DNA of 39,828 bases from Rhodothermales bacterium (lineage in GTDB: Bacteria > Bacteroidota > Rhodothermia > Rhodothermales > UBA10348): contig JAURNP010000082.1 in assembly GCA_030830105.1 (NCBI GenBank), positions 1 through 39,828 on the forward strand, given 5' to 3'. Position 1 is the stretch's first letter; each line of letters begins with the position of its first letter. This document shows, in pieces, positions 10,343 to 26,723 of this stretch. The position numbers were made by a program, and so were the translations under genes. The notes beneath the pieces are model-generated. The model did not search any database, was not told the origin of the DNA, and was given only the letters and a program-made list of their open reading frames with translations.

Positions 10343-12145
10343 TCAATTTGCGGCGCTCGATGCAGCGCGGTAGGCCTCGAGCGTGCCACGCGCTGCGGCG
10401 GTATCACCTCGGGAGTACTCTAGCCTGGCCCGATTGTACAGCATGATGGCAGACTGAGCGTCTATTCTTTCAGCTTGCTTCAACGCAACTTCGGCGGCTT
10501 CCAATTGGGATTGACGCAGCTGTATGGCTGCGAGAGCATTCCAAAAGTATAGGCGATCCGAGCGGGAAGCGCCTTGAAGGGCCAGCTTTTCAACCAGTGC
10601 GTCGAGGGTGGAGCTCGCCAGGAATCGACCGATGACCTCTTCCATGAGCGCAGCATTGAATGGCTGCCAGTAAAAGAGGGAATGGTAATATCGAAGCGCC
10701 TCGGCCGAGTCACCTTGCGCCAGGTGAAGTTGGGCCCCTTCGAGCAACGCATTCTGCGTGGCAAGAGGGGAGACCATGATGGCTACCGCCAACGAGTCCC
10801 CAATACGTCCTGAATCCTGTCGCTCCCGGAGTTTTGCTGCATAAGTTGAGGTGGAGGATTCAGAGTCGGCATCCAGATTGAAGGGATAGTCGGCCAAGAG
10901 GCGGTCAATTAGAATACCAGACTCGGCTGCTGACAGTTCATCCAGAATCGGCGTTTTCCAATCTATTCCGAGATTGCCAGCATCCAGCGTCTTGGCTTCC
11001 AGCATGGGAGCGGCCCTGACCGAAAAGGCATCCGCCATCAACTCGTACCCTTCGTGCGTAGGGTGCAGGTGATCGGTAAAAAGGTCATATCCCGGGATGC
11101 CCGACGGCGAGGCACGGTTGAAAGCGACTTCCAGGTCCTCCACTTCAACTCCAGGGCGTTCTGCCCACGAACGGATGATGTCGTTCAGCTCACCTGAGGC
11201 CCTGAATCGAATCTGATCCAAGTCCCTTGCTGTTTCGAATAAATCTCTCGCGTTCAGCGTGTCGCCCTCGGCAAAGGCAACTTCCGCAGCACTGAAAGCT
11301 GCGAGGGCATCAGCTGTTTGCGAGAGCGGTTGTTGTCCGGAGAGGTTTCCAACTAGGGTGCCTGCCAGTACGGGAATGTGGGCCGATTCAAAGTGATCCA
11401 GTACGCGATTCATGTTACTCGTGAACTGACGTATTCCCGCTCGATAGATCTCGCCGTCAAGTTCGATTCCGGCGTTCTGAACGACGCGCGCCATTAAAGT
11501 TCGGTCATTGGAACCCGGTTCAAGCCCGTAGTCGGGGGGGCCTAAAAAGAGGTACTCAAGGGCAAGAACGAGGGCTGAGCGCTTCAGTGCGAGGATCGTT
11601 CTTCCGAACCACGGGGATTTCGGCATCCAGTCAGCCGAAGTACCCACTCCATAGGCTCCGTAGAATTCATTGTGGCCTGCATAGATCACGACCAAATCGG
11701 GCTCCATGCGAATTACGTGGCGGGTAAGATCAAGCAGTGTATAGCTGTTTACGGCTGTCATTCCCAGATTGATGACCTCGACCGGGTAACCCGCAAATCG
11801 GTCCATCAGTCTGCGCTCCAGTCCGGCAGGGAATCCGTGGTACCACTGAAACGGAAAACCAGCGGTCGAAGAGCCACCCAGAACCACGACGCGGACCCCA
11901 TTTTCAGGCTTTTCTTCGCGGAATGGCGTGAATCCCACATTTGGCAGGAAGCCGCGGAAATAGCGGCTTGGATACTCCGGATTGAATCCAGTCCATCCCG
12001 ACTCGTTTTCGACAGCCTTGAATGCATGCCGGCGGTCGTCTGCAAACCCGGCCACCCGAAGGCCGACTTCCAGAAACAGAAGGAGAGCGATTGGGATGAA
12101 TACCAGCGCCGCGGTGAATATTCGTTCCCTGGACGAATCAGCCAT
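10343..12145 (-). CDS. SGNH/GDSL-type hydrolase with N-terminal membrane anchor and C-terminal TPR-like repeats
   Basis: VVVLGGSSTAGFPF (GxSS), VVIYAGHNEFYGAYG (GHNE), DHLHPTHEGYELMADA (DxxHPTxxG), Ala-rich helical C-terminus. Confidence 0.85.
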   Translation of the reverse strand: MADSSRERIFTAALVFIPIALLLFLEVGLRVAGFADDRRHAFKAVENESGWTGFNPEYPSRYFRGFLPNVGFTPFREEKPENGVRVVVLGGSSTAGFPFQWYHGFPAGLERRLMDRFAGYPVEVINLGMTAVNSYTLLDLTRHVIRMEPDLVVIYAGHNEFYGAYGVGTSADWMPKSPWFGRTILALKRSALVLALEYLFLGPPDYGLEPGSNDRTLMARVVQNAGIELDGEIYRAGIRQFTSNMNRVLDHFESAHIPVLAGTLVGNLSGQQPLSQTADALAAFSAAEVAFAEGDTLNARDLFETARDLDQIRFRASGELNDIIRSWAERPGVEVEDLEVAFNRASPSGIPGYDLFTDHLHPTHEGYELMADAFSVRAAPMLEAKTLDAGNLGIDWKTPILDELSAAESGILIDRLLADYPFNLDADSESSTSTYAAKLRERQDSGRIGDSLAVAIMVSPLATQNALLEGAQLHLAQGDSAEALRYYHSLFYWQPFNAALMEEVIGRFLASSTLDALVEKLALQGASRSDRLYFWNALAAIQLRQSQLEAAEVALKQAERIDAQSAIMLYNRARLEYSRGDTAAARGTLEAYRAASSAAN

Positions 12146-12178
12146 GCTTGCGTACGAAAAATGGAAGATGTATCATCA

Positions 12179-12192
12179 TGAAAAGGTTTTCA
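12179..12192. promoter_or_regulatory. Candidate LacI-family operator in the SGNH/LacI divergent intergenic region
   Basis: TGAAAA-GG-TTTTCA inverted repeat; its reverse complement is identical to the site at 15359-15372. Confidence 0.75.
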
Positions 12193-12242
12193 GAAGATGC
12201 AGCTGCATCGTATGAAGCACCGGAATTCACGGTTGGAAAGGT

Positions 12243-13241
12243 ATGGGAGCTACCATCAGAGACGTCGCAGAGCGAGCAAAGGTATCGATTTCAACGGTAT
12301 CGCGCGTCCTCAATGACACATGCAACGTAAAAGCAGATAAGCGGGATCGAGTTCTCGATGCTGCAGCAGCGCTGGGGTACACGCCTAATCCCGCTGCACA
12401 GAGTTTGCATTCTCGTAAGACCGGGGCCATTGGGATCCTGCTCCCGTACGTGTCCGGCGAGTTCTACGCTGAGCTGTTGAACGGAATTGACAGTGCTGCA
12501 CAGGAAGGGGGACGCTTGTTACTGATATCCACCTCCCATAACTCTGAAGAAGAGTTGGAGGCGGCTATGAAAGGCATGTACCGCCGGGTCGATGGTATGC
12601 TCGTTATGGCTCCTGTTACCACGTCGGAGGCCGTCCTGAGAAGAGCTCCCAGAGACCTTCCTGTAGTGTTCTTGAATACCCGATCAGAAGGGGGCGGTAT
12701 TCCGCTGTTGACGTTTGACAACTACGGTGGCATGCGGGCCATGACGGAGCACCTGATCCAGCGCGGTCACAAGGATATCGGCTTCATTACCGGACCAGCG
12801 GATGCCTTCGATGCCCAGGAACGATTTCGCGGTTACCGTGAAGCCCTTCACGCGTCGGGAATACCTCTTCGAGAAGATCTGATTGCGAATGGCGAATACA
12901 CCCAGCGGGCGGGACATGACGCAGCACGTTATCTGATCGGACTTGCACAGCGCCCCTCGGCGATTATGACCTCGAATGATGACGCAGCCATCGGCGCTCT
13001 GAGTGCCATCCGGGAAGCAGAACTCAGCGTACCTGGTGAGATAGCACTGACGGGCTTTGATGACATACCGAGTGCCATGTTTACCGTGCCACCTTTGTCA
13101 ACCGTACACGTACCGGCACGTGAATTAGGCCGACGGTCGGTGGAGATCTTGGAGATGGCTATCGACAATGGAATCGATGTGGCCTTGGAAGAGACAGGCG
13201 ATTTCTTACCAGTGGAGCTTCGCTTGCGCGCATCAAGCTGA
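12243..13241 (+). CDS. LacI/GalR-family transcriptional regulator
   Basis: HTH ATIRDVAERAKVSISTVSRVLNDTCNVKADKRDRVLDAAAALGYTPNPAAQSLHSRKT plus periplasmic-binding-like domain; 332 aa. Confidence 0.95.
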   Translation: MGATIRDVAERAKVSISTVSRVLNDTCNVKADKRDRVLDAAAALGYTPNPAAQSLHSRKTGAIGILLPYVSGEFYAELLNGIDSAAQEGGRLLLISTSHNSEEELEAAMKGMYRRVDGMLVMAPVTTSEAVLRRAPRDLPVVFLNTRSEGGGIPLLTFDNYGGMRAMTEHLIQRGHKDIGFITGPADAFDAQERFRGYREALHASGIPLREDLIANGEYTQRAGHDAARYLIGLAQRPSAIMTSNDDAAIGALSAIREAELSVPGEIALTGFDDIPSAMFTVPPLSTVHVPARELGRRSVEILEMAIDNGIDVALEETGDFLPVELRLRASS

Positions 13242-13345
13242 ACGACGATTCAACTGAGGCCATACGTCAAAAGCGGTCATTGAACGGTAGTGTAGGGCGA
13301 AAACGATGGACCTCACCTCAAAACAGCTGATAATCCTTGACACGA

Positions 13346-13368
13346 TGAGGACATGGCCTCATTTTTTC
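13346..13368 (+). terminator. Short intrinsic terminator after the lacI-type gene
   Basis: ATGAGG...CCTCAT 6-bp stem followed by TTTTTT. Confidence 0.45.
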
Positions 13369-13433
13369 GGCCCGCCTAAAATCAGATCACGTTCCGACTC
13401 CTTTTTGAGAAATCTAGAAAGTACCCCTATGCG

Positions 13434-15290
13434 ATGCTCAGCATGAATAAATCTTTGGGGCTGATGTGGGCCGGTCTCTTTGTGTTGGCTTCCTCAGGCA
13501 CCGCGATGTCCCAAGATTGGCGTTTGGTTTGGAGCGACGAATTCGACAGCGGCGTACAACCAGACCAGACCCGCTGGTCCTATGACGTCGGTGGGGGAGG
13601 GTGGGGCAATCAGGAATTTCAATACTACACGGATTCCCGTCCTCAGAACAGTCGTGTTCAGGATGGCTTATTGATTATCGAGGCCATCAAGGAGGACTTT
13701 TTTGGTTCTACCTACACCTCAGCCCGTCTCAGAACCAAGGGTCAAGGCGATTGGCTATATGGACGTGTTGAAGTGAGAGCAAAACTCCCTGCCGGACTGG
13801 GGACATGGCCTGCCATTTGGATGCTCGCTTCGGAAAGCCATTACGGAGACGGAGGTTGGCCAGACAACGGCGAGATCGACATCATGGAAGGAGTAGGCCA
13901 TGAACCAGACCGTACACACTCAGCCATACACGTCCAGGCTCTCAATCATCAGCTGAATAACAATCCCGGAGCTACATTCATGAAGGAAGACTCGCGAACA
14001 GGGTTCGCCGTCTACGCCATGGACTGGACGCCGAGAACCATCACGACGTACGTCGATGGTGAGGTTAACCTGATTTATGAGCGCGGCAATAGCGATTGGC
14101 AGCGGTGGCCGTTTGATCGCCCTTTCCACTTGATCCTGAACCTTGCAGTAGGTGGATCCTGGGGCGGTATTCAGGGGGTTGACCCGAATGACTTCCCCAC
14201 CCGATTCGAGATTGACTACGTTCGCGTGTTCGAGGATGCAGCCGGGCCTCCAGAGGTTTCTGTATCATCGATTGGCGGACTGACCCAGGTTGATCCGGGT
14301 GAATCCTTGTCGCTTTCTGCGGCGGCAACCGATGCAGCCTCCACAATTGAAGAGCTGGCTCTGTACCAACGAGACGGATTACTCGCTTTTGTGCAAGAGG
14401 GACAGGTTTCTGTCGAACTGGAGAATCTCGCTCCTGGTTGCTATCAAATAAGAGCCGATGCGGTGGATTCGGATGGATGGGAAGCCGGATCGGACACGCT
14501 CAATGTCCAGGTTGGCACCGAGTGCGTGCAAGCCCCGTATCTCATGGTGGCCCCTCTGGTGCCAGGACGCGTTGAGGCTGAGTACTTCGATATTGGCGGG
14601 GCAGGAGAGGCATACCTTGATCTCTCCTCCCAGAACACGGGAGGCGCATTGCGAGCAGATGAAGGAGTGGACATTGGCAGCTCACAGGATATTGGCGGTG
14701 GCTATCAGATTGAAAACGTCACATTGCGCGAGTGGACCGAATACACGGTCAATGTCACGCAATCAGGTTTTTACCGCATGTCGGCGAGACTGGCTGCGAC
14801 GAAGGATGGTTCACTGACCATTTCGGTTGACGACGTTGAGCACGCTGATCCGCTAACGTACAGCTCGACCAACTCGACGTCATTCCACCGGAACGCAGTG
14901 CTGGACGGCCTCTGGCTTGACGAGGGGATTCGCACCGTCAGGGTCGAATACAACGCCATTGGAGCCTACGTGAACCGCTTCGAATTCCGGCTTTTGAGCG
15001 CAACAGGCCTGGAAACGCTACCGGAGTCTTCCGAAATGGAGATCGATGTCTTTCCGAATCCCTTTCAGGACCGTCTCGAATTGATCATCAAGGGAAAGGC
15101 GCCGGGGCCGAGTGTTATCTCCATGTATGATGTCACCGGTCGTCGCGTTTTTCATACATCTCTCACGGGTCATAAATCGACCACAAACCACGTACAGTTA
15201 AACCCTACAGAACGCATGAGTCCTGGTTTGTATCTCGTTGTAATCCAATCGGATACAGACACTTACACAACGACCGTAATCCGGCGCTGA
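13434..15290 (+). CDS. Secreted GH16 beta-glucanase (laminarinase-like) with carbohydrate-binding-module-like region and T9SS C-terminal sorting domain
   Basis: WRLVWSDEFDSG, catalytic GEIDIMEGVG, FHLILNLAVGGSWGG; CBM6-like region GRVEAEYFD...; C-terminal VFPNPFQDRLEL...MYDVTGRRVF...GLYLVVIQSD. Signal peptide present; alternative ATG at 13443. Confidence 0.92.
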   Translation: MLSMNKSLGLMWAGLFVLASSGTAMSQDWRLVWSDEFDSGVQPDQTRWSYDVGGGGWGNQEFQYYTDSRPQNSRVQDGLLIIEAIKEDFFGSTYTSARLRTKGQGDWLYGRVEVRAKLPAGLGTWPAIWMLASESHYGDGGWPDNGEIDIMEGVGHEPDRTHSAIHVQALNHQLNNNPGATFMKEDSRTGFAVYAMDWTPRTITTYVDGEVNLIYERGNSDWQRWPFDRPFHLILNLAVGGSWGGIQGVDPNDFPTRFEIDYVRVFEDAAGPPEVSVSSIGGLTQVDPGESLSLSAAATDAASTIEELALYQRDGLLAFVQEGQVSVELENLAPGCYQIRADAVDSDGWEAGSDTLNVQVGTECVQAPYLMVAPLVPGRVEAEYFDIGGAGEAYLDLSSQNTGGALRADEGVDIGSSQDIGGGYQIENVTLREWTEYTVNVTQSGFYRMSARLAATKDGSLTISVDDVEHADPLTYSSTNSTSFHRNAVLDGLWLDEGIRTVRVEYNAIGAYVNRFEFRLLSATGLETLPESSEMEIDVFPNPFQDRLELIIKGKAPGPSVISMYDVTGRRVFHTSLTGHKSTTNHVQLNPTERMSPGLYLVVIQSDTDTYTTTVIRR

Positions 15291-15358
15291 TTGGAAGCGC
15301 TTCGCCTTCGGGAGGTGCACTCACGCACCAAATGTTACGGTCATTATGAAAACGGATC

Positions 15359-15372
15359 TGAAAACCTTTTCA
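15359..15372. promoter_or_regulatory. Candidate LacI-family operator (site 1 of pair)
   Basis: TGAAAA-CC-TTTTCA inverted repeat, about 110 bp upstream of CDS 15475. Confidence 0.75.
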
Positions 15373-15401
15373 TTTCTGAGCAGCTCTTTATACCTTCAGG
15401 A

Positions 15402-15415
15402 TGAAAAGCTTTTCA
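15402..15415. promoter_or_regulatory. Candidate LacI-family operator (site 2 of pair)
   Basis: TGAAAAGCTTTTCA perfect 14-bp palindrome; centre 43 bp from site 1. Confidence 0.78.
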
Positions 15416-15474: not shown

Positions 15475-17709
15475 ATGAACACGAGTGCTACGACACGCTT
15501 CGGCTTCATGTCCGTCCTGATGCTGCTGGCTGCCTCCTTTATTGTGGCCCCCACGCATGCTCAGAGCGGCTTGACAGAGCTGGGCGACGACTTCATTTTC
15601 TTCTTCGATGGTCCGAACGTGCTTATTCCAGAGGCAACGGCTCCGATCGTCAACGATCCGCTCGACCCGACGTCCGGAAACCGTGTACACAAGTACGATT
15701 ACGGTAACTGGTCAGAGAACGGGTATCGTTTCTCCCGTGCGGAAGGACTCGACATGACCCAGAACGTGGGTGCGAGCGGGGGCGAAGGAGACACCCTCTA
15801 TCTCAAACTCCTCGTTGATCCAGCGAACGCCGGGCAGCCCGGCGTTTTCCTGACTATGTTCGACAAGACGGATGACAATCCGAGTAGCGACGGTTCGGCC
15901 GACTTAATGTCGCGTCTCCACTGGCCAATTCCAGAGGAATTGCGCAACGGACAGTGGCACGATTTGGCCATTCCGCTCCCACCAACAACGACGGCGGGTC
16001 TTGCCGCTGCCAAAGAGGGCAACGATATTAATGGTAACCCACTGGCCACGCCGCTGGATGCCAACGCTGCGTTGTGGACTTACGGAGGCGCCTGGTCTGT
16101 CGGTGGTTTTGGTCTTTGGGGCCCTGGAGAATGTAATAATGCCGCTTGTTTCGCCGAATTCGAATGGGATGCTGTTTACAGCCTCACCGTGTTCTTCGAT
16201 AACAACACCGGCGGCGGTCCTGTCTACCTGGACGATGTTTACATCGGTGGTCCTGGTACGGACGTCTCTGCAGCAACGTCGGCACCTGACGCCATGGACG
16301 CAGTCACCGTCGCTGCGGACGGAAGCGCGAACAAAGTCTCTTGGACGCACAACGAATCATTTGGTGGTTACAACGTTTACGCGTCAGAAGACCCCATCAC
16401 CTCGGCGTCTATTCTGGACGGCGGCGCAAGTCTCCTGGGGTCGGTTGCTTTCAATGCAACGGATTTCTCGCTGACGCACGAGCTGGAAATGCCTTTTTCC
16501 ACGCTCGCTGGTGAGCCGCTCTATTACGCTGTGACCTCGAAGAGCTTTTTCGGCGTCGAGAATTCAGATATCTCAGCTTCTTCCGGAAATGTTGCGAACA
16601 CGGATCTTCCGATTGCACCGTTCATCTCCATCCTGACAGATGACGAAGCCAATACCATCTTTAATAACGTCGCAGGTGGTGTTTTGAGCGATGCCGGATT
16701 CCCGGATACGCCTGCCTTCATGATTGATCCAAGCCACTGGCGAGATGGTGACTCCCCGGCTCCGACGGGTGATGGCGCTGCCGCCGACATCTCCGCCATG
16801 GCCAAGGTGGCCATTGATGAGTTTGGCTTCATGTACGTCTATGGGGAAGTAAATGACGATATCGCTGGTTTCCCTGGCGCTAACGCCGATGGCGGTGGCA
16901 CATGGAATTTCGACTCGTTCGAAATCTTCCTGGGCAATTACGATGTCCGTGATGTTGGCGGTAGCCTTCTCTCCGGATCACCGCATGGCCAGTATGGTCG
17001 TGGCGCTGAGGCAGATTTCCAGCTGCGCATGGCAGCGGAAGCTGACGAGGCTGGTAACGTTTCCGGCATCGGCATCTGGGCACATGCTGATCCGGCCGGC
17101 GCAACGGGTTCGACTGCTGTTGGTCCTGTTCAGGGTGCCGGTGGTGTCGCTGAAGCAACGGCAACGGGATACCGTTTCCTCGTGGCCATTCCGCTGGAGT
17201 CGGTTTACGATCCAAGTGCTGATCAGCCACTGGCTCTTCCTGCCTCGAATGAGTTGAAAGTCATTCCATTCAACCTTGCCCTTAATGACAAGGACGCAGG
17301 TGGTGGACGCGAAGCTCAGGTCAACTGGTCGCTGAACGCCTCCGCGGGCGCGTGGAACAATCCGTCCAAGTGGCAGCCTACGGCTATCGTTGGTCGTTCA
17401 CTCTTGACCGATACGGAAGATGTCGAAACGGCTCTACCGATCGAATTCGCGCTTGAGCAGAACTACCCGAACCCGTTCAACCCGAGCACGAACATTGAAT
17501 TCTCCATTCCGAACGCAACGCCTGTTCGCCTGGAAGTATTCAACGTTCTCGGTCAGCGTGTCGCCACGCTGGTCAATGGTCAGACGATGACTGCTGGCAC
17601 GCACTCGGTAGCATTTGATGCTTCCGCTATGACGTCCGGTATGTACATCTACCGTCTGCAGGCAGGAGCCAGCTTCTCCCAGACGCGGACAATGATGCTA
17701 CTCAAGTAG
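15475..17709 (+). CDS. Secreted glycan-binding-like protein: Fn3-like and CBM9-like regions with T9SS type A C-terminal domain
   Basis: Signal peptide ...APTHAQ; KVAIDEFGFMYVYGEVNDD...NFDSFEIFLGNYD resembles CBM9-type domains; C-terminus LEQNYPNPFNPSTNIEFSIP...LEVFNVLGQRVATLV...GMYIYRLQAG. Confidence 0.82.
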   Translation: MNTSATTRFGFMSVLMLLAASFIVAPTHAQSGLTELGDDFIFFFDGPNVLIPEATAPIVNDPLDPTSGNRVHKYDYGNWSENGYRFSRAEGLDMTQNVGASGGEGDTLYLKLLVDPANAGQPGVFLTMFDKTDDNPSSDGSADLMSRLHWPIPEELRNGQWHDLAIPLPPTTTAGLAAAKEGNDINGNPLATPLDANAALWTYGGAWSVGGFGLWGPGECNNAACFAEFEWDAVYSLTVFFDNNTGGGPVYLDDVYIGGPGTDVSAATSAPDAMDAVTVAADGSANKVSWTHNESFGGYNVYASEDPITSASILDGGASLLGSVAFNATDFSLTHELEMPFSTLAGEPLYYAVTSKSFFGVENSDISASSGNVANTDLPIAPFISILTDDEANTIFNNVAGGVLSDAGFPDTPAFMIDPSHWRDGDSPAPTGDGAAADISAMAKVAIDEFGFMYVYGEVNDDIAGFPGANADGGGTWNFDSFEIFLGNYDVRDVGGSLLSGSPHGQYGRGAEADFQLRMAAEADEAGNVSGIGIWAHADPAGATGSTAVGPVQGAGGVAEATATGYRFLVAIPLESVYDPSADQPLALPASNELKVIPFNLALNDKDAGGGREAQVNWSLNASAGAWNNPSKWQPTAIVGRSLLTDTEDVETALPIEFALEQNYPNPFNPSTNIEFSIPNATPVRLEVFNVLGQRVATLVNGQTMTAGTHSVAFDASAMTSGMYIYRLQAGASFSQTRTMMLLK

Positions 17710-17733
17710 TACTGTCCTAGTATATCGTCGATG

Positions 17734-17768
17734 AAAGTGGGGCCTGCCTACCGGGCAGGCCCCACTTT
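17734..17768. terminator. Strong hairpin between the CBM9-like gene and the TonB receptor gene (terminator/attenuator candidate)
   Basis: AAAGTGGGGCCTGCC / GGCAGGCCCCACTTT perfect 15-bp stem with 5-nt loop. Confidence 0.75.
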
Positions 17769-17805
17769 CTTTGGCGCTTCTTTCCAACTGGAATCCCTGG
17801 ATCCC

Positions 17806-20562
17806 ATGGTTTCAAAGTCAGCCTTTTTCAGTGCCTTGCTGGTGTTATGGCTAGGCACTGGTGTCACCTCTATGGCCAGCCCCCTCGATGAAGAGGCGGC
17901 CATTTATGGTAAAATATCGGGCCGTGTCGTGGATGCGGCTACTGGAGATCCTTTGCCGGGCGTGAACGTCGTGATCGATGGCACCACCCAAGGAACGGCT
18001 ACAGATCTGGACGGGGAGTACGTGATTATTCGTATACGGCCGGGCAGATATGCCCTCAGAGCCCAATTCATCGGATTCCAGACTCAGGTGATTGAAAATG
18101 TCGAGGTCATTATCGACCAGACTACACGGGTTGATTTCCGTCTCGGCGAAGAGATTCTGGAAGGAGAGGAGATCGTGGTGACCGCAGAACGCCCTATCGT
18201 CCAGGTTGACCGCACTACGACGACGGCCGTTGTTGGAGAAGAACAGCTGGAAGCGCTACCAGTGCTTGGAATTAATGATGCTATCAACCTGCAGGCCGGG
18301 GTTGTGGATGGACGATTCCGCGGTGGGCGCTCAGGAGAGGTTGCGTACTTGATCAATGGTATCCCGATCAATAACGCCTTCAATAATCAAGCCTCCTTCG
18401 AGATTGAGCAAAACATGGTCTCGAACCTCCAAGTGATCAGTGGGGTGTTCAACTCGGAATACGGACAGGCTCAGTCTGGTGTTGTGAACATCGTAACCAA
18501 AGACATTCCCGATTCATGGTCTGGAAACGTTTTGGCGTATGCCGGAACCATGGTTTCCGACCGCGAACTAGAGTTCATGAATCGGACCGTGGGTCCTGGT
18601 AACAATCTTTTGGCCTCAGATTTTGGGTCAGAGACGTACACGTACAATGAATTAGCTCCCATCCGGAATTTGACCGATGTCCAATTTTCTTTCGGTGGTC
18701 CTCTATTGAATGAGAAGCTGGGCTTGCAGGTGACTACACGGTGGCTGGATGACAACGGCAATCAGTTTGGCCGACGTCTTTTTTCGCCGGCCGACTCATC
18801 GGTAGGATTGAATACCGGTCGCGACCCTTCGGAGTGGAATATTGAATCCAACGGAGACGGCGACTTCGTCTCGATGGGGACCAACCAGCGTCTTTCCATC
18901 AACACGGGACTCACGGCGCGCCTCTCTGGCAACACACGCTTTGAGTACAATCTGTTCTGGCAGGACGGGAAGACGACGCCTTACAGTCACGATGCCAAGT
19001 ACGTCCCTGATGGCCTCAACGGAGGCTATTATGGTAGCCAGACGCATATTGCTGCGTTGCGCTACACGGTGGGCACCAAGTCATTCGGTCAGCTCTCCTA
19101 CAGCCTTCTGCGTGACAAATGGGACTACTATCTGTTTGAAGATCCCACAGACCCGCGATATCAGTGGCCACAGAAACGAAACTTGGATGGCCAGAATGCC
19201 TTCGATGTGGGAGGCAACGATTTGTTCAGTGATGATCAGCTGACTGTCACCCACACCATCCTGACGGACTTCACCAGTCAGGTCAACAAACGCCACCTCG
19301 TCAAAGGGGGGCTGATGAGCCGTCTTCACCGCCTGAAGAACCGCTCCTTCGGTATTGAGCGTTCTGCTCGAACAGGGAATCTGCCAGCGGTGTCGCCTGA
19401 CCGATTCGCTGATAACGAGTTGGATGTGAAGCCAACCGAATTCGCAGCATACATCCAGGACAAGATGGAATTCACGGGTCTGATCGTGAACGCGGGTCTG
19501 CGCTTTGATTATTTCAATTCCAACTTCGACATTCCGGTCGAGTGGCGACAGGCACAGGATGCCAGGATTTTTGATCCAGCTTCTCAGGATTCCATTTCCA
19601 ACCGAGTAAAGGCGGATCCGGATATGCAGATCAGCCCGCGTATCGGGATCGCCTTCCCGATTTCCTCCACAGGCGTAATGCGCTTTTCGGCCGGGCTCTT
19701 TTTCCAAATCCCAGCTCTCGCGCTTCTCTATACGAACCCGGAATATGAGGTCAACCCACAGTCCAGCAGCGTCCAGTTTGGAAACCCTGCATTGGAGCCC
19801 GAGCGCACCCTGGCGTTCGAAGTGGGACTGCAGCAGGGGCTGACGGATAACATCGGTCTGGAATTGACCATCTTCTCCAAGGATGTTCGCAACCTGACGG
19901 GTCAAGAGATTGATCGTACCCCGACAGGGGATCAGGTCGTGCAGTGGATCAACCGTGATTTCGGTACGATTCGGGGCTTCACCTTCTCGATGTTCGACCG
20001 CCCGGGCGGTAAAGTATCCTGGACATTTGATTACACATTACAGTTCGCTGAGGGTACCTCTTCGGACCCGGGTGAAGCATTCGGCCGCGCCCAGTCAGGC
20101 CTTGAGCCTATTCTTTCGTTGGTTCGTCTGAATTGGGACCGTCGCCATGTCTTCAATAGTACCGTTACCATTAAGCCTATTGAAGGGCTTTCGGTGACCA
20201 TGGTAAACCGCCTGCGTTCAGGCGAACCGTACACCACGGTTCGTGGTTTTGTACGGTCTACGCGACCAAACAATGCCGACCGCCCCGTGCAGTTCTGGAC
20301 GGATCTTCGGGCCTATTACGCGCCACCGTTCATCGAGCAGGATGTGCAGCTGTTCCTTCAGGTGCAGAACCTGTGGGATCGTGCCAACCAGTATGCGGTT
20401 TGGGCGACGACGGGAAGCTGGGATGAGTCGTTGGAACTTGAACAGTTCCGCGCGACCGGTGCCGCTGTAGGTGGTCTCAATACGTTGGATGAGTATTACG
20501 CTCGTCCGGACTGGGTATCCGGTCCTCGTCAAGTCAGTCTTGGACTCCAATATTCATTCTGA
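17806..20562 (+). CDS. TonB-dependent outer-membrane receptor with N-terminal carboxypeptidase-regulatory-like domain
   Basis: GKISGRVVDAATGDPLPGVNVVIDGTTQGTATDLDGEYVI, plug VVTAERPIVQVDRTTTT...YLINGIPINNAF...GEYGQAQSGVVNIVTKD-like, C-terminal ...QVSLGLQYSF; start moved past the hairpin to ATG 17806. Confidence 0.93.
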   Translation: MVSKSAFFSALLVLWLGTGVTSMASPLDEEAAIYGKISGRVVDAATGDPLPGVNVVIDGTTQGTATDLDGEYVIIRIRPGRYALRAQFIGFQTQVIENVEVIIDQTTRVDFRLGEEILEGEEIVVTAERPIVQVDRTTTTAVVGEEQLEALPVLGINDAINLQAGVVDGRFRGGRSGEVAYLINGIPINNAFNNQASFEIEQNMVSNLQVISGVFNSEYGQAQSGVVNIVTKDIPDSWSGNVLAYAGTMVSDRELEFMNRTVGPGNNLLASDFGSETYTYNELAPIRNLTDVQFSFGGPLLNEKLGLQVTTRWLDDNGNQFGRRLFSPADSSVGLNTGRDPSEWNIESNGDGDFVSMGTNQRLSINTGLTARLSGNTRFEYNLFWQDGKTTPYSHDAKYVPDGLNGGYYGSQTHIAALRYTVGTKSFGQLSYSLLRDKWDYYLFEDPTDPRYQWPQKRNLDGQNAFDVGGNDLFSDDQLTVTHTILTDFTSQVNKRHLVKGGLMSRLHRLKNRSFGIERSARTGNLPAVSPDRFADNELDVKPTEFAAYIQDKMEFTGLIVNAGLRFDYFNSNFDIPVEWRQAQDARIFDPASQDSISNRVKADPDMQISPRIGIAFPISSTGVMRFSAGLFFQIPALALLYTNPEYEVNPQSSSVQFGNPALEPERTLAFEVGLQQGLTDNIGLELTIFSKDVRNLTGQEIDRTPTGDQVVQWINRDFGTIRGFTFSMFDRPGGKVSWTFDYTLQFAEGTSSDPGEAFGRAQSGLEPILSLVRLNWDRRHVFNSTVTIKPIEGLSVTMVNRLRSGEPYTTVRGFVRSTRPNNADRPVQFWTDLRAYYAPPFIEQDVQLFLQVQNLWDRANQYAVWATTGSWDESLELEQFRATGAAVGGLNTLDEYYARPDWVSGPRQVSLGLQYSF

Positions 20563-20564
20563 GC

Positions 20565-23500
20565 ATGTCAAACTTCATGAAACGTACGTTGCGCACTATG
20601 ACGGGTAACAGCCGTCCTATCGCTCTATCCACGTTCCTGGTGGCATTGCTGGTACTGGCAATGGCTACCCCGGCTGTACAGGCTCAGACTCGGATTCCGA
20701 GTGACTACAGGGGAAGCGAGGATATGATTGCTCGCGGAATTCTGGATGGAAATCTGATTGAAACCAACTTCCGCAATCACGGTGAGCTGGCCCGCTGGAA
20801 TGACCTTCCATGGGGCGTCTGGCCTCGAGGCGTTGGCGGTCGTCATATTGACGGTGTAGGTATCATGGCGGCAGGCCGCGTTCGCGCCGAGCGGGAGAAG
20901 TGGCCTTTCTACAACGGAGCGGCCGATACGCTGGTAAACCCGGTCATCTTGACCTACCGCGAGGCCGGTAAGCGGCTTGGTCCTGGAGGCGAGTTGTGGG
21001 GATGGTTGCCGCTGGACGGCTTCCATAATACGCGCCGGATCAACGCCCTGGGACTTCTAGAGCCTGTCCCAGCGCTTTCTGATGATCCGAGCTCATGGCC
21101 GGCATTTTGGCCGGACCGCCTCGACAACCCGGATGATCCGGGTTGGGGTGGAAATTGGAACGGCTTTTTCGGCCGCGGTGTCTTCAATGCTGACCTGGAA
21201 AGCTTCTACGTCATGGACGACTACTCCGACAGGGAGTACCACGTGTCCAGGGTGACAGGGCAGCCGAACTCGCAGTACGGAGTTTTCTACCCCTCGCCGT
21301 CCGATTCCACGATCGGAGGTATGGGCCTTCAAACGCAGGTGCGCATTTTTCAGTGGGCCAACATCCTTGCCGAGGATGTGATGTTTATTCTGTACCGTAT
21401 TTCTAACACTTCCGAAACAGACTACCGCTACAACCTAGAGGGTTCGGAAGGCATGTTTTTCACCCAGATCATGGACTATGGTTTGGGGAATGAGGAAGGA
21501 GACGAAAACGCAGCCTTCAACGCCCGTGAAGACGTGACCTTCGGATGGGATCAGGACGGAATCGGTCAGCGTCAGGATGGAACGCTCTACGATCTAGGAT
21601 ATACCGGATTCGCCTTCCTGGAAAGTCCGACACGTGCCGAAGATGGCCTGGACAACGATGAGGACGGAATCATTGACGAGCAGCGTTTTGGTGGTCCTGG
21701 TCAATTGATTGAAGGGCAAGATGCCATTCGACTCTACGTGTCCAATAACTATGACTTGATCAACTTTGAACTGGCCAACGGTCCAGTCGAAGAGACGCGT
21801 GCTTTCAAAGCCGGTCGGTGGTGGACCGGTGATGAAAACCTCGATTGGCTCGGATTTGACGATGTCAATGGCAACGGAGTAATGGATTCCGGTGAATCGG
21901 CGAACAACGATGTCGGTCTGGATGGGAAAGGTCCTTTCGACCTTGAATATCCCGGACCTGACGAAGGGGAAGCCAATGGCCGCCCGGACGCCGGTGAACC
22001 GAACTTCGATGAGCTTGATGTTGCCGAGTCTGACATGATCGGTCTCACCGGATTCGATCTTTCGTCCCGTCCCTTCTACGAGAATGGCGACAACCTGAGA
22101 GACGACACCTGGATGTTTGATCGCATCCTGAATTTCGCTCAGTTCCCGCTCGGAACGCCCTCGGATGCTTTTGAAGCGGATATTGAGCCGTTCCTTCTGT
22201 TCGTATCGGGTCCGGTAAACCTCTTCCGCGAAAAGGTGGACTTCTTCTCTACCGCATGGGTGTTCGGGGAAGACGAGCAGGACTTCTTCAAGAACCGTCG
22301 GACGGTACAGAGCATCTACGATGCTGACTACAACTTTGCGCAGGCTCCATTCCTTCCAACCCTGACGGCGATTCCGGGTGACGGTCGCGTTGTCCTGACC
22401 TGGGATACCACGTCGGTAGCTAGTTTCGACCGCTTCAGCCAGGAGTTCGATTTCGAGGGATACCGTCTGTACAAGGGTACCAACCCGCTTCTGACGGATG
22501 CGCGTACCATTACCAACGTGGATGGCACGCCGACCTTCATGGAGCCAGTCGGGCAGTGGGACCTCGTGAATGATATTTCCGGACCTGTTACAGTCCTCGA
22601 AAATGAAGCGGTGTATGATCTGGGGGACAACTCGGGTCTTTCCTTCTTCTATGTTGACGAGGATGTCAGCAACGGGATGACCTACTACTACGCGCTGGTT
22701 GCATACGATAGGGGTATTCGGGAGAACGGCGAGACTATCATTGATCCACAGGAGAACATCTTCAATATCTCTGTGGACCTTGCCGGGAATGTTCTGGGTG
22801 TCTCCCAGAACGCCGCGATCGTCATCCCGCGGAGCAAGCCAGCCGGATTTGTTGACGGTAATGTCAATGAGGACCTCTCGTCCGTCACTGATGGTGTGGG
22901 TGCGGGCAGTATGAACGTTCGCATTATCAGCGGAGCGGAAATCAGGTCTGACAATCCATATCGCGTTGTTTTCCGAAGCGAGGAAGACGACAACCCGAAT
23001 GCGGATATTCAGGTGACTACGTCGTTCGACATTGTCGACATGGCGACCAGTGAGGTCAGGGTGCGAAACAATGCTCTGGTCGACGAACCTCCCATGGTAG
23101 ACGGCTTTATCGTCGAGGTCGATAACTACGAAGTGGCCTCTGGAGCCATCGAGTTTGATGAGAACCAGACGGGGTGGGTTGGCAGCGCCGGAACAGCATC
23201 CGAGCTGGTAGACATCGACCCATCCGGGCTAGACGGGGTCTCGACCAACTGGAAAGCGTATGTACGAGCAGATTCGACTACCCTGCACATTCCGACTACG
23301 TTCGACTATGAGGTGCACTGGGTGAATCCGGCTGATTCAACCTATCGGTTACCACGGTTCGGTATCGGCTTCCTGACGGGCTCTGTGCCCATTTTTGTCA
23401 AGAACACGACGACCAATCAGGTTGTGGATTTATTGATCCAGGACCAGAACAATAACCGCGAATTCGACGAAGAGGATGATGTGATTGCGGTGGATCGTGA

Positions 23501-23993
23501 CGGCTTCCAGCGCAAGTTCCGGTTCCGCATATCCTTCTCGATCCCAGAGGGTGCAACGTCATCGGCACCGGACGCGGGCACGGTCTTCCGTATCACGCCT
23601 AAAAAAGAATTCCATACGGGCGACTACTTTCAGTTCACGTTGCGCGAGCCGTACGTGGACGCTCAGCTGGCGGAACAGGAGCTTGATCACATTGGCGTTG
23701 TGCCCAACCCATACGTTGGTGGCTCGGGCTTCGAACAGCGAAGCCAGATCTCCGGCCGCGGTGAACGCCGTTTGCAGTTCATCAATCTTCCGCAGGAGGC
23801 AACGATTACCATCTTCAACCTGCGTGGCGAGCTGGTTGACGAAATCGAGCACTTTTCAACCTCGGACAATGGTTCGGTCTTCTGGGATCTTCAGACCCGC
23901 GGTGGCCAGGACATTGCTTATGGAGTGTACATCTATCACGTGGAGGCTCCCGGTATCGGTGAGCACGTCGGCAAGTTTGCCGTCGTCAAATAG
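20565..23993 (+). CDS. Large secreted protein (1142 aa) with Fn3-like region, Asp-rich Ca-binding-like motifs and T9SS-like C-terminus
   Basis: Signal peptide ATPAVQAQT; DGLDNDEDGIIDEQ, DDVNGNGVMDSGE, DQNNNREFDEED; PTLTAIPGDGRVVLTWD...FEGYRLYKGTN; C-terminal VVPNPYVGG...ITIFNLRGELVDEI...GVYIYHVEAP. Confidence 0.8.
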   Translation: MSNFMKRTLRTMTGNSRPIALSTFLVALLVLAMATPAVQAQTRIPSDYRGSEDMIARGILDGNLIETNFRNHGELARWNDLPWGVWPRGVGGRHIDGVGIMAAGRVRAEREKWPFYNGAADTLVNPVILTYREAGKRLGPGGELWGWLPLDGFHNTRRINALGLLEPVPALSDDPSSWPAFWPDRLDNPDDPGWGGNWNGFFGRGVFNADLESFYVMDDYSDREYHVSRVTGQPNSQYGVFYPSPSDSTIGGMGLQTQVRIFQWANILAEDVMFILYRISNTSETDYRYNLEGSEGMFFTQIMDYGLGNEEGDENAAFNAREDVTFGWDQDGIGQRQDGTLYDLGYTGFAFLESPTRAEDGLDNDEDGIIDEQRFGGPGQLIEGQDAIRLYVSNNYDLINFELANGPVEETRAFKAGRWWTGDENLDWLGFDDVNGNGVMDSGESANNDVGLDGKGPFDLEYPGPDEGEANGRPDAGEPNFDELDVAESDMIGLTGFDLSSRPFYENGDNLRDDTWMFDRILNFAQFPLGTPSDAFEADIEPFLLFVSGPVNLFREKVDFFSTAWVFGEDEQDFFKNRRTVQSIYDADYNFAQAPFLPTLTAIPGDGRVVLTWDTTSVASFDRFSQEFDFEGYRLYKGTNPLLTDARTITNVDGTPTFMEPVGQWDLVNDISGPVTVLENEAVYDLGDNSGLSFFYVDEDVSNGMTYYYALVAYDRGIRENGETIIDPQENIFNISVDLAGNVLGVSQNAAIVIPRSKPAGFVDGNVNEDLSSVTDGVGAGSMNVRIISGAEIRSDNPYRVVFRSEEDDNPNADIQVTTSFDIVDMATSEVRVRNNALVDEPPMVDGFIVEVDNYEVASGAIEFDENQTGWVGSAGTASELVDIDPSGLDGVSTNWKAYVRADSTTLHIPTTFDYEVHWVNPADSTYRLPRFGIGFLTGSVPIFVKNTTTNQVVDLLIQDQNNNREFDEEDDVIAVDRDGFQRKFRFRISFSIPEGATSSAPDAGTVFRITPKKEFHTGDYFQFTLREPYVDAQLAEQELDHIGVVPNPYVGGSGFEQRSQISGRGERRLQFINLPQEATITIFNLRGELVDEIEHFSTSDNGSVFWDLQTRGGQDIAYGVYIYHVEAPGIGEHVGKFAVVK

Positions 23994-24004
23994 GGAGGCT
24001 GATC

Positions 24005-25054
24005 ATGCGACGTATAATCTCTTTCCTGACACTTTTTGCGCTGGCAGTGACCGTTCAGGCACAGGATGCGCAGTCTGATGATCAGAGTCGTGTCGGTACG
24101 ACGGCAGCAACCTTCCTGACGCTGGGTGCTGGTGCGCCTGGCGCCTCGCTGGGGCACGCCTACACCGCTACTGCAACAGGTGCTGATGCACTCTTCTGGA
24201 ATCCAGGTGGAGCAGCCATTGCCCACCGTTCGGGACAGAGGGGCGGTTTGATGTTCTCGAACAACGAATGGATTGCCGGCATCACATACAACACGGCTGG
24301 TCTCACGTTACCTGCCGGTGGTTCTGGCGTGGTTGGTTTGAGCATCGCTTCCGTGGATTACGGTTCCATGAAAGTGCGTACGATTGCCCGGCCGGAAGGC
24401 ACGGGGGAGACGTTCAGTGCCTCGGACTTGAGTGTAGGCCTGACCTATGCGATGCCTCTGACGCCGGATTTCTACTTCGGAGGTACCTCGAAACTGGTAC
24501 GCCAGTCCATTCGTGACATGCGAGCGCGCACCATGGCCATCGACGTGGGCTTCGTTCTCCTGACGGACTATTTCAACGGTCTGAAGGTTGCGGCATCCAT
24601 CATGAATTTCGGTGGTAAGATGACCATGCGTGGCATCAACTCCGAAATCCAGGTTGATTTGGATTCTCAGCACGAAGGCTCCTCCGAGAGTATTCCAGCG
24701 CGAATCAAAATGGATGCTTGGGACCTTCCCATGTCATTCAAGTTTGGTATCTCGCTTCCTGTCATCAAGACGGGTGCAACCGAACTGGTTGTGCTGGCCG
24801 ATGCCAACCAGACGAACGACAATAACCTGAATGCAGATCTTGGGGCACAGTTCTCGTACATGACGCGTATGCTGAGCTTCAACGCTCGCGCAGGGTATAA
24901 GGACGCTTTCATCGACAATGTGGACTCCCACATTGCTTACGGTGCCGGTCTTGACCTGCAGCTCTCAGGTGTCCGTTTCGGATTCGATTACGCTTATGTT
25001 CCGTTTGATCTCCTTGATCGTTCCCAGACGATTGACTTCCGCATCTTCTTCTGA
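24005..25054 (+). CDS. PorV/PorQ-family (UPF0164-like) outer-membrane protein
   Basis: Signal peptide; TAATFLTLGAGAPGASLGHAYTATATGADALFWNPGGAA; terminal FGFDYAYVPFDLLDRSQTIDFRIFF. Confidence 0.85.
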   Translation: MRRIISFLTLFALAVTVQAQDAQSDDQSRVGTTAATFLTLGAGAPGASLGHAYTATATGADALFWNPGGAAIAHRSGQRGGLMFSNNEWIAGITYNTAGLTLPAGGSGVVGLSIASVDYGSMKVRTIARPEGTGETFSASDLSVGLTYAMPLTPDFYFGGTSKLVRQSIRDMRARTMAIDVGFVLLTDYFNGLKVAASIMNFGGKMTMRGINSEIQVDLDSQHEGSSESIPARIKMDAWDLPMSFKFGISLPVIKTGATELVVLADANQTNDNNLNADLGAQFSYMTRMLSFNARAGYKDAFIDNVDSHIAYGAGLDLQLSGVRFGFDYAYVPFDLLDRSQTIDFRIFF

Positions 25055-25055
25055 T

Positions 25056-26723
25056 GTGACGAAGGGATACCCGCAAAAGCAACCTCTCAGACAACGCCCG
25101 GCACTCTTTGGGTGTCTGGCGTTGCTGTTCCTGTTCGTTGCAGGCTGTGGTGCTGACTCCGGCCCCGGTCCCGATCGGGACCCGCGGACGCTTGCTACGG
25201 TCGATGGGTTCGATGTGTCTGTGTCATGGTTCGAGCAGACCTATATCGACTTCCTCGTTCGCTCGGGCTCGAACGACTCAGAAGTCGCTCGTACCGCTCA
25301 CCTTGAGCAGTTGATTGACGCCCTGCTGCTATCGCGCCATTATTCGACCCTGGACCGAGACACGACCCAGGCATTCCGAGAAGAAGTCCGTCGCATTGAA
25401 GCAGAGGAGTTGGGTTCTCGGTTCTTCGAGACGGCCTTTCTGGATACCATGACAGCCCCAACAGACGTTCAGCTTCGACAGGCCTATATCCGAGATCAAT
25501 CGAGGCGTGTTGTAAGGCATCTGTATTTCACGTCAAGCCAGCAGGTTGAGGAGTCGTACGCGCGCCTTCAAAGTGGCGTACCTTTCCTGGAAGAAGCCCA
25601 GTACGTATACGAGCTCTCAGAGTCAGATTCTATGGCGGGATTCCTGGGACCTATCGGCTTCTATTCGGTGGATGATGCCTTCGCCGAGGCCGCATTTTCC
25701 CTGGAGCCTGGTGCATTCTCGGAGCCGGTACGCTCGCGATACGGCTACCATATCATATTGCTTGAGAACATCATCCAGGAGCCGTTGCTCACGGAATCAG
25801 CCTATCTGACACGCCGCTCTGGGCTGTCCAGTCAGTATCGTCAGCGTCGTCGCCGTCTTGAAGGAGGCGTGTTTGTTCGCACCTTCATGAATCAGCTCAA
25901 CGTAGAGGTCAATACACCTGCTATTGAGGCGCTCGACGAATTGATCACATCTATGGACCCGACACTCTATGAGGCAGCCGGTCAGATCGACATTCAAATG
26001 GATACAGGTTGGAAGCAGGATATCGAACCTTCAACGCCGCTTCTGACGTTTGACTGGGATGGAGAGCGGGAAGCATTTACGGCTGGTGATTATGCATTCT
26101 GGTTCGATGCCCTTCCACAGCGGGAGGCCCGCGAGAGAACGGCTGCATCGGTGGGTCGCGCTCTTCGCAATGAGGCGCTCGCTCGGGCTGGAGAAGAGGA
26201 AAAGCTTCGTGACGGTGAGTGGGAGACCGAGGTGGATCGCCGGGTTCGATTGGAGAGGGCTCGATTGATGCGGGAGGATTTACGCATGGAAGACGTCGAA
26301 ATCAATACGTCGTTGGTTCGGCAGGCCTTCGATCGCCTGGGCTGGGCGAATCGCCGTATGGCCATCTTGTCATTTGATGCCATCACAGCGGTTTCCTCCG
26401 ATGCTGTCCAGCGTGCAGCCGCTTTGACCGAGGAGTGGCCTGTCCAGATTCGCGAAGCGACGTTGGAATCTATACCTGAATGGTCGCCCTACGTTGCCAG
26501 CGTGCCTGTCGACTCAGTTGTGTTTGTGGGACGGCGAAATGACTGGGCGGCTATCCGAGTACTGGATCGCCAACGAATCCAACCAAACTGGGTGCGGGAC
26601 CAAGAGGAGATTGTCCGGCGACTGCGCCCATTTGTGGCAGAATACGAGCTGGTGAAGCAGCTGCGAGAAAGAGCCCGAATTGAGATTGACCGCGACTTGA
26701 TGCGCGATATTGCTACGTTCTAG
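25056..26723 (+). CDS. PpiC-type peptidyl-prolyl isomerase lipoprotein (SurA/PrsA-like)
   Basis: Lipobox-like LFLFVAGCGAD; parvulin region RRVVRHLYFTSSQQVEESYARLQSGVPFLEEA...GFLGPIGFYSVDDAFAEAAFSLEPGAFSEPVRSRYGYHIILLE; GTG start at 25056, 1 bp after the preceding stop. Confidence 0.82.
   Translation: MTKGYPQKQPLRQRPALFGCLALLFLFVAGCGADSGPGPDRDPRTLATVDGFDVSVSWFEQTYIDFLVRSGSNDSEVARTAHLEQLIDALLLSRHYSTLDRDTTQAFREEVRRIEAEELGSRFFETAFLDTMTAPTDVQLRQAYIRDQSRRVVRHLYFTSSQQVEESYARLQSGVPFLEEAQYVYELSESDSMAGFLGPIGFYSVDDAFAEAAFSLEPGAFSEPVRSRYGYHIILLENIIQEPLLTESAYLTRRSGLSSQYRQRRRRLEGGVFVRTFMNQLNVEVNTPAIEALDELITSMDPTLYEAAGQIDIQMDTGWKQDIEPSTPLLTFDWDGEREAFTAGDYAFWFDALPQREARERTAASVGRALRNEALARAGEEEKLRDGEWETEVDRRVRLERARLMREDLRMEDVEINTSLVRQAFDRLGWANRRMAILSFDAITAVSSDAVQRAAALTEEWPVQIREATLESIPEWSPYVASVPVDSVVFVGRRNDWAAIRVLDRQRIQPNWVRDQEEIVRRLRPFVAEYELVKQLRERARIEIDRDLMRDIATF

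Follow-up and report, generated by a model that had tools for sequence, protein, structure and literature searches.

Rare palindromes at lacI and glucan-uptake promoters as predicted operators of a LacI-family repressor in a Rhodothermales bacterium

The window analysed here, a 39,828-nucleotide stretch of contig JAURNP010000082.1 from a Rhodothermales bacterium (assembly GCA_030830105.1), carries a gene for a LacI-type protein and three short palindromes in its intergenic regions. The question raised by this arrangement is whether the palindromes are operators of the adjacent protein and, if so, which genes they would control and how.

Operator sequences and genomic rarity

The three 14-bp palindromes were recovered with the coordinates and letters given in the original prediction: operator 1, TGAAAAGGTTTTCA, at 12179..12192; operator 2, TGAAAACCTTTTCA, at 15359..15372; and operator 3, TGAAAAGCTTTTCA, at 15402..15415, none of them assigned to a strand. 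All three fit CTGAAAASSTTTTCAT in a single orientation, and the 17-bp identity TCTGAAAACCTTTTCAT claimed between operator 2 and the reverse complement of operator 1 is correct. The gene context is likewise as described. Operator 1 lies between lacI (12243..13241, plus strand) and a divergent GDSL/SGNH hydrolase gene (10343..12145, minus strand; PF13472), an adjacency found family-wide, and is placed 34-47 bp ahead of the SGNH start codon. Downstream of lacI is a GH16 glucanase gene (13434..15290, plus strand; PF00722), whose product has a type IX secretion tail (PF18962). Operators 2 and 3 fall inside a 184-bp gap 5′ of a gene for a CBM9-domain protein (15475..17709, plus strand; PF06452), also with a type IX secretion tail (PF18962), which is the first gene of the predicted regulated operon and is followed by a TonB-dependent outer-membrane receptor gene (17731..20562, plus strand; PF07715, PF13715). 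No SusC/SusD pair was found at the locus: the receptor scored 75 bits where the SusC/RagA model requires 368, and a Pfam scan of 20 window proteins gave no SusD-family match.

The genes 3′ of the receptor (20565-26723) encode a 1142-aa protein that resembles PorZ weakly and at its C-terminus alone, a PorV/PorQ-family protein (NF033709) and a peptidyl-prolyl isomerase of the PPIC type. They make up a set related to the outer membrane and type IX secretion that is carried along with the glucan operon, and counterparts of the first three occur in that order in relatives. As listed, the PorV-family and isomerase reading frames overlap by 137 bp (24918-25054), and the isomerase therefore probably begins downstream of its first ATG.

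We scanned the full assembly, which comprises 2.52 Mb in 221 contigs at about 91% completeness, for exact copies of TGAAAASSTTTTCA with an SS centre. Four were found, namely the three window sites and one at C24:5373, against about 0.037 expected genome-wide under a first-order Markov model with the dinucleotide composition of the window. The pattern read backwards, used as a control, had no match in the genome, and none of 100 shuffles of the window reached the observed number of motif matches. The motif is thus not abundant in unrelated promoters, and the core claim of LacI operators stands after the genome-wide scan. Allowing two mismatches gave 70 sites, compared with 30 for the reversed control, which is too noisy for adding targets. 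A TA-centred copy was noted at C211:3550. Terminator scans returned no terminator-like sites.

Co-inheritance of motif and regulator

Across related genomes, identity to the lacI product leaves a gap between orthologues (at least 43%) and paralogues (at most 37%). Of 31 orthologues, 20 had an exact motif within 350 bp upstream of the gene, while none of 22 paralogues did (Fisher p = 4e-7, a value that overstates independence because the species are related); with one mismatch allowed, the counts were 23/31 and 2/22. The genome under study itself has two lacI paralogues (34-37% identity), both lacking the motif upstream. Among the eight orthologues without an upstream lacI site at up to one mismatch, four (L081-L084) instead have an exact site just downstream of lacI, ahead of the next operon. 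Counting exact sites with any centre, family genomes with a lacI orthologue carry 1-7 (mean 4.4) and those without it 0-3 (mean 0.5). The sole genome with three sites in which no lacI was found is 87% complete and in 340 contigs, and its sites precede GPH/GH149 and CBM9 genes. The named records with a lacI orthologue are uncultured metagenome assemblies, one labelled as a Rhodothermales bacterium and others as Bacteroidota or Bacteroidetes.

The comparison of orthologous lacI promoters, which had been proposed as a check, thus found the exact motif near orthologues and not near paralogues. Comparative evidence strongly supports the palindromes as predicted LacI operators, the predicted autoregulation of lacI and the predicted control of the TonB operon by LacI.

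Promoter architecture at lacI and the symporter operon

A scan for the sigma-70 consensus found nothing, the lacI -35 included, and phylogenetic footprinting served instead. When 12 lacI/SGNH divergent regions were aligned, the only conserved islands were CTTGC, TA...T and the operator arms, with the conserved hexamers 17 bp apart and the operator 1-2 bp further on. These islands point to a lacI -35 element at 12148..12153 (TTGCGT, plus strand; CTTGC invariant in relatives) and a -10 element at 12171..12176 (TATCAT, plus strand; 17 bp after the -35), and their positions would place the start of transcription at about 12183, inside operator 1. The arms of operator 1 are invariant in all 12 regions, and throughout the aligned lacI, CBM9 and GPH promoters operator arms stay invariant where the flanks diverge. 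Five GPH/GH149 promoters have the same order of elements as lacI. A putative core of -35, 17 bp and -10 stands directly before the operator in 13/13 lacI and 5/5 symporter promoters, so that the operator would cover the predicted start.

The layout was summarised as a regular expression (TTG, a 16-18 bp spacer, TAnnnT, then the operator). Of 44 target promoters, 23 matched it on their gene side and 21 did not; no promoter matched on its opposite side, and the rate at random positions was 0.27%. The expression was composed after the lacI alignment had been seen, and the other promoter groups are therefore the cleaner test: it matched 5/5 GPH and 4/6 single-site CBM9 promoters, and few among the remaining target types.

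Paired operators at the CBM9/TonB operon

Between the paired operators, TA..TT forms the only invariant columns in 11 species, and in the window it corresponds to a putative -10 element, TACCTT, at 15391..15396 (plus strand). Read in this way, the downstream operator lies over the predicted start of the operon, and TTTTCA of the upstream operator (15367-15372) occupies the -35 position with an 18-bp spacer and 4/6 letters of TTGACA. Related single-site operons (L101, L119 and L124) have an ordinary TTGAC-type -35 in place of TTTTCA. These observations suggest that the operator pair brackets the CBM9/TonB core promoter.

The original prediction had instead inferred cooperative repression, noting a spacing of about four helical turns; in such a model, two dimers would bind cooperatively to the same operators on one helix face. 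The 43 bp between the two sites do correspond to about four turns, and intersite distances in the LacI family peak at 13, 22 and 32 bp, of which 22 and 32 are helix-step multiples (PMC4052901). However, the spacing in relatives is 41, 43, 44, 46, 48, 58 or 60 bp with no common helical phase, and several related operons have a single site. Four-turn cooperativity is therefore not supported, and we regard cooperative pairing as unlikely. A core promoter between the sites accounts for the variable distance, and 43 bp is thus most simply the size of that core promoter.

With the pair placed around the core promoter, we tentatively consider it possible, on the doubtful side of even, that the half-site TTTTCA took over the -35 role in some genomes, in a system that combines strict operator arms with a degenerate, preferentially asymmetric GG/CC centre. 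If true, a -35 element and a repressor site would be made of identical letters.

The LacI-family regulator

The 332-aa lacI product has the architecture of its family, an N-terminal LacI helix-turn-helix (PF00356, residues 4-49) and a periplasmic-binding-protein-like core (PF13377/PF00532), with all matches above cut-offs. A PDB search placed CcpA closest, followed by RbsR and PurR; against the NCBIfam ccpA equivalog model the protein scored 191.6 bits (cut-off 442.35), outside CcpA membership. It stops close to where the RbsR (331 aa) and CcpA (330 aa) models finish, which suggests that a C-terminal tetramerisation tail is absent. With a protein that apparently does not extend past its core domain, tetramer-mediated DNA looping would be unlikely.

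The relation to CcpA allows a reading in which the protein is an activator or a CcpA-like global catabolite regulator, not a pathway-specific repressor: CcpA is the closest solved relative and a CcpA cre consensus has the same arms as the sites found here. We judge this quite improbable, given that the genome has just four exact sites, that beta-glucan genes account for all or nearly all of them, and that the operators lie over the start or over -10/-35, where polymerase would be blocked rather than recruited.

Target genes and the beta-1,3-glucan pathway

The regulon had been described as local. This part of the claim did not hold, since the fourth exact site, C24:5373, lies outside the window on another contig, and relatives have further target operons. 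It stands upstream of an operon whose first gene encodes a GPH-type sugar:cation symporter (PF13347) and whose second encodes a 1160-aa protein scoring 1510 bits against the NCBIfam NF058639 equivalog model for GH149 1,3-beta-D-glucan phosphorylase (cut-off 1150). At an initial look this second gene seemed GH94-like; NCBIfam gives GH149. The gene divergent from this operon encodes a thioredoxin-fold protein in relatives and here runs off contig C24.

In relatives, the motif precedes CBM9/TonB-receptor and GPH/GH149 operons, GH3 and GH5 genes, and MFS and SSF transporters, which is a coherent beta-glucan set; a few copies fall within large ORFs (L103, L128) and are not plausible targets. GH149, noted here at L006:306-5332, was found in 27 of 60 relatives searched. 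Several family genomes have a lacI orthologue without GH149, and in some of these a site lies before a GH3 gene instead. A CA-centred copy at C12:3387 (L007:3387-3400), before a GHL10 gene, was initially dismissed as a chance occurrence. In the nearest relative, however, a GG-centred copy stands in the corresponding position ahead of the GHL10 gene, with flanks that have diverged to about 75% likeness, and the GHL10 site is a possible further target. Taken together, the secreted GH16, the CBM9 protein, the TonB receptor, the inner-membrane symporter and the phosphorylase of the predicted regulon seem to form a pathway for beta-1,3-glucan of the laminarin type.

Discussion

The three palindromes are very probably docking sites of the adjacent LacI-type repressor. 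The rival that they arose by chance, form terminator stems or are bound by some unrelated protein has the shortness and A/T-richness of the motif and its occasional occurrence inside large ORFs of relatives in its favour and is nevertheless very improbable, in view of the excess over expectation, the terminator scans, and the way in which the motif keeps its position and, across the order, is inherited together with a single group of LacI orthologues.

Rarity, conservation, co-inheritance, promoter geometry and pathway coherence were observed here; binding, repression and the nature of the inducer are predictions. We hold it highly likely that the palindromes are operators of the adjacent LacI protein, which would repress at core promoters and whose targets would serve beta-1,3-glucan use. 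A LacI dimer would read TGAAAASSTTTTCA, with a centre that is mostly GG/CC and sometimes CG or GC, and would repress by covering core promoters, with RNA polymerase blocked. At lacI, the operator at about -4 to +10 would cause autorepression and would probably affect the divergent SGNH gene too. At the CBM9/TonB operon, the upstream operator at the -35 position and the downstream operator over the start would enclose the core promoter, and at the distant locus an operator that abuts the -10 would act on the GPH symporter/GH149 phosphorylase operon. The inducer that releases the repressor would most likely be a short beta-1,3-glucan oligosaccharide or glucose.

Such a regulon would join genes that lie apart in the genomes of uncultured bacteria and serve the uptake and phosphorolysis of beta-1,3-glucan. 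The motif is sharp, with four copies per genome, which makes further target genes findable in fragmented genomes. The case also provides an example of LacI-family operators whose centre is not fixed as CG, and its promoter layout is directly testable.

Comparison with known systems

A literature search for the exact operator strings returned nothing beyond a cre consensus of CcpA and one paper on a human gene, which is unrelated. A cre consensus of S. thermophilus CcpA, derived from RegPrecise, is ATGAAAACGTTTTCAA (PMC6090898); it shares its arms with the operators described here, and CcpA is also the closest solved protein to the regulator. Unlike the CcpA/cre system, ours has few sites, pathway-specific targets and a Gram-negative host, and its regulator scores well below the ccpA cut-off.

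The system resembles LacI-family sugar regulons (PMC4052901) in several ways: an even-length palindrome, conserved before orthologous targets and located 30-140 bp ahead of the start codon, autoregulation (found for 72% of the regulators studied; predicted here), a local sugar pathway and sometimes more than one site per operon. The pair distance differs, lying off the 13, 22 and 32 bp peaks, and so does the centre. Among 102 distinct site contexts (from the retrieved loci, and not all confirmed as targets), we counted 69 with GG/CC, 24 with CG, 4 with GC and 5 with other centres. A CG centre is usual, not obligatory, in LacI-family regulons: it was reported for 1173 of 1303 regulators, with a different centre in 49 and a degenerate one in 29 (Ravcheev et al. 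2014, PMC4052901). This orthologue group does not have CG as its typical centre, and its mostly GG/CC centre puts it in the family minority, which is a variant detail and not a new kind.

Clusters around GH149 have also been described: those of type II combine it with GH16, a TonB receptor and a transporter of the MFS_2 family (pfam13347), and those of type I have a LacI or AraC regulator (PMC5827456). Unlike those clusters, the GH149/transporter operon is here on another contig, tied to the TonB operon by the operator alone. The system described here is genuine and conserved, and it belongs to a well-known kind, the LacI-family sugar regulons.
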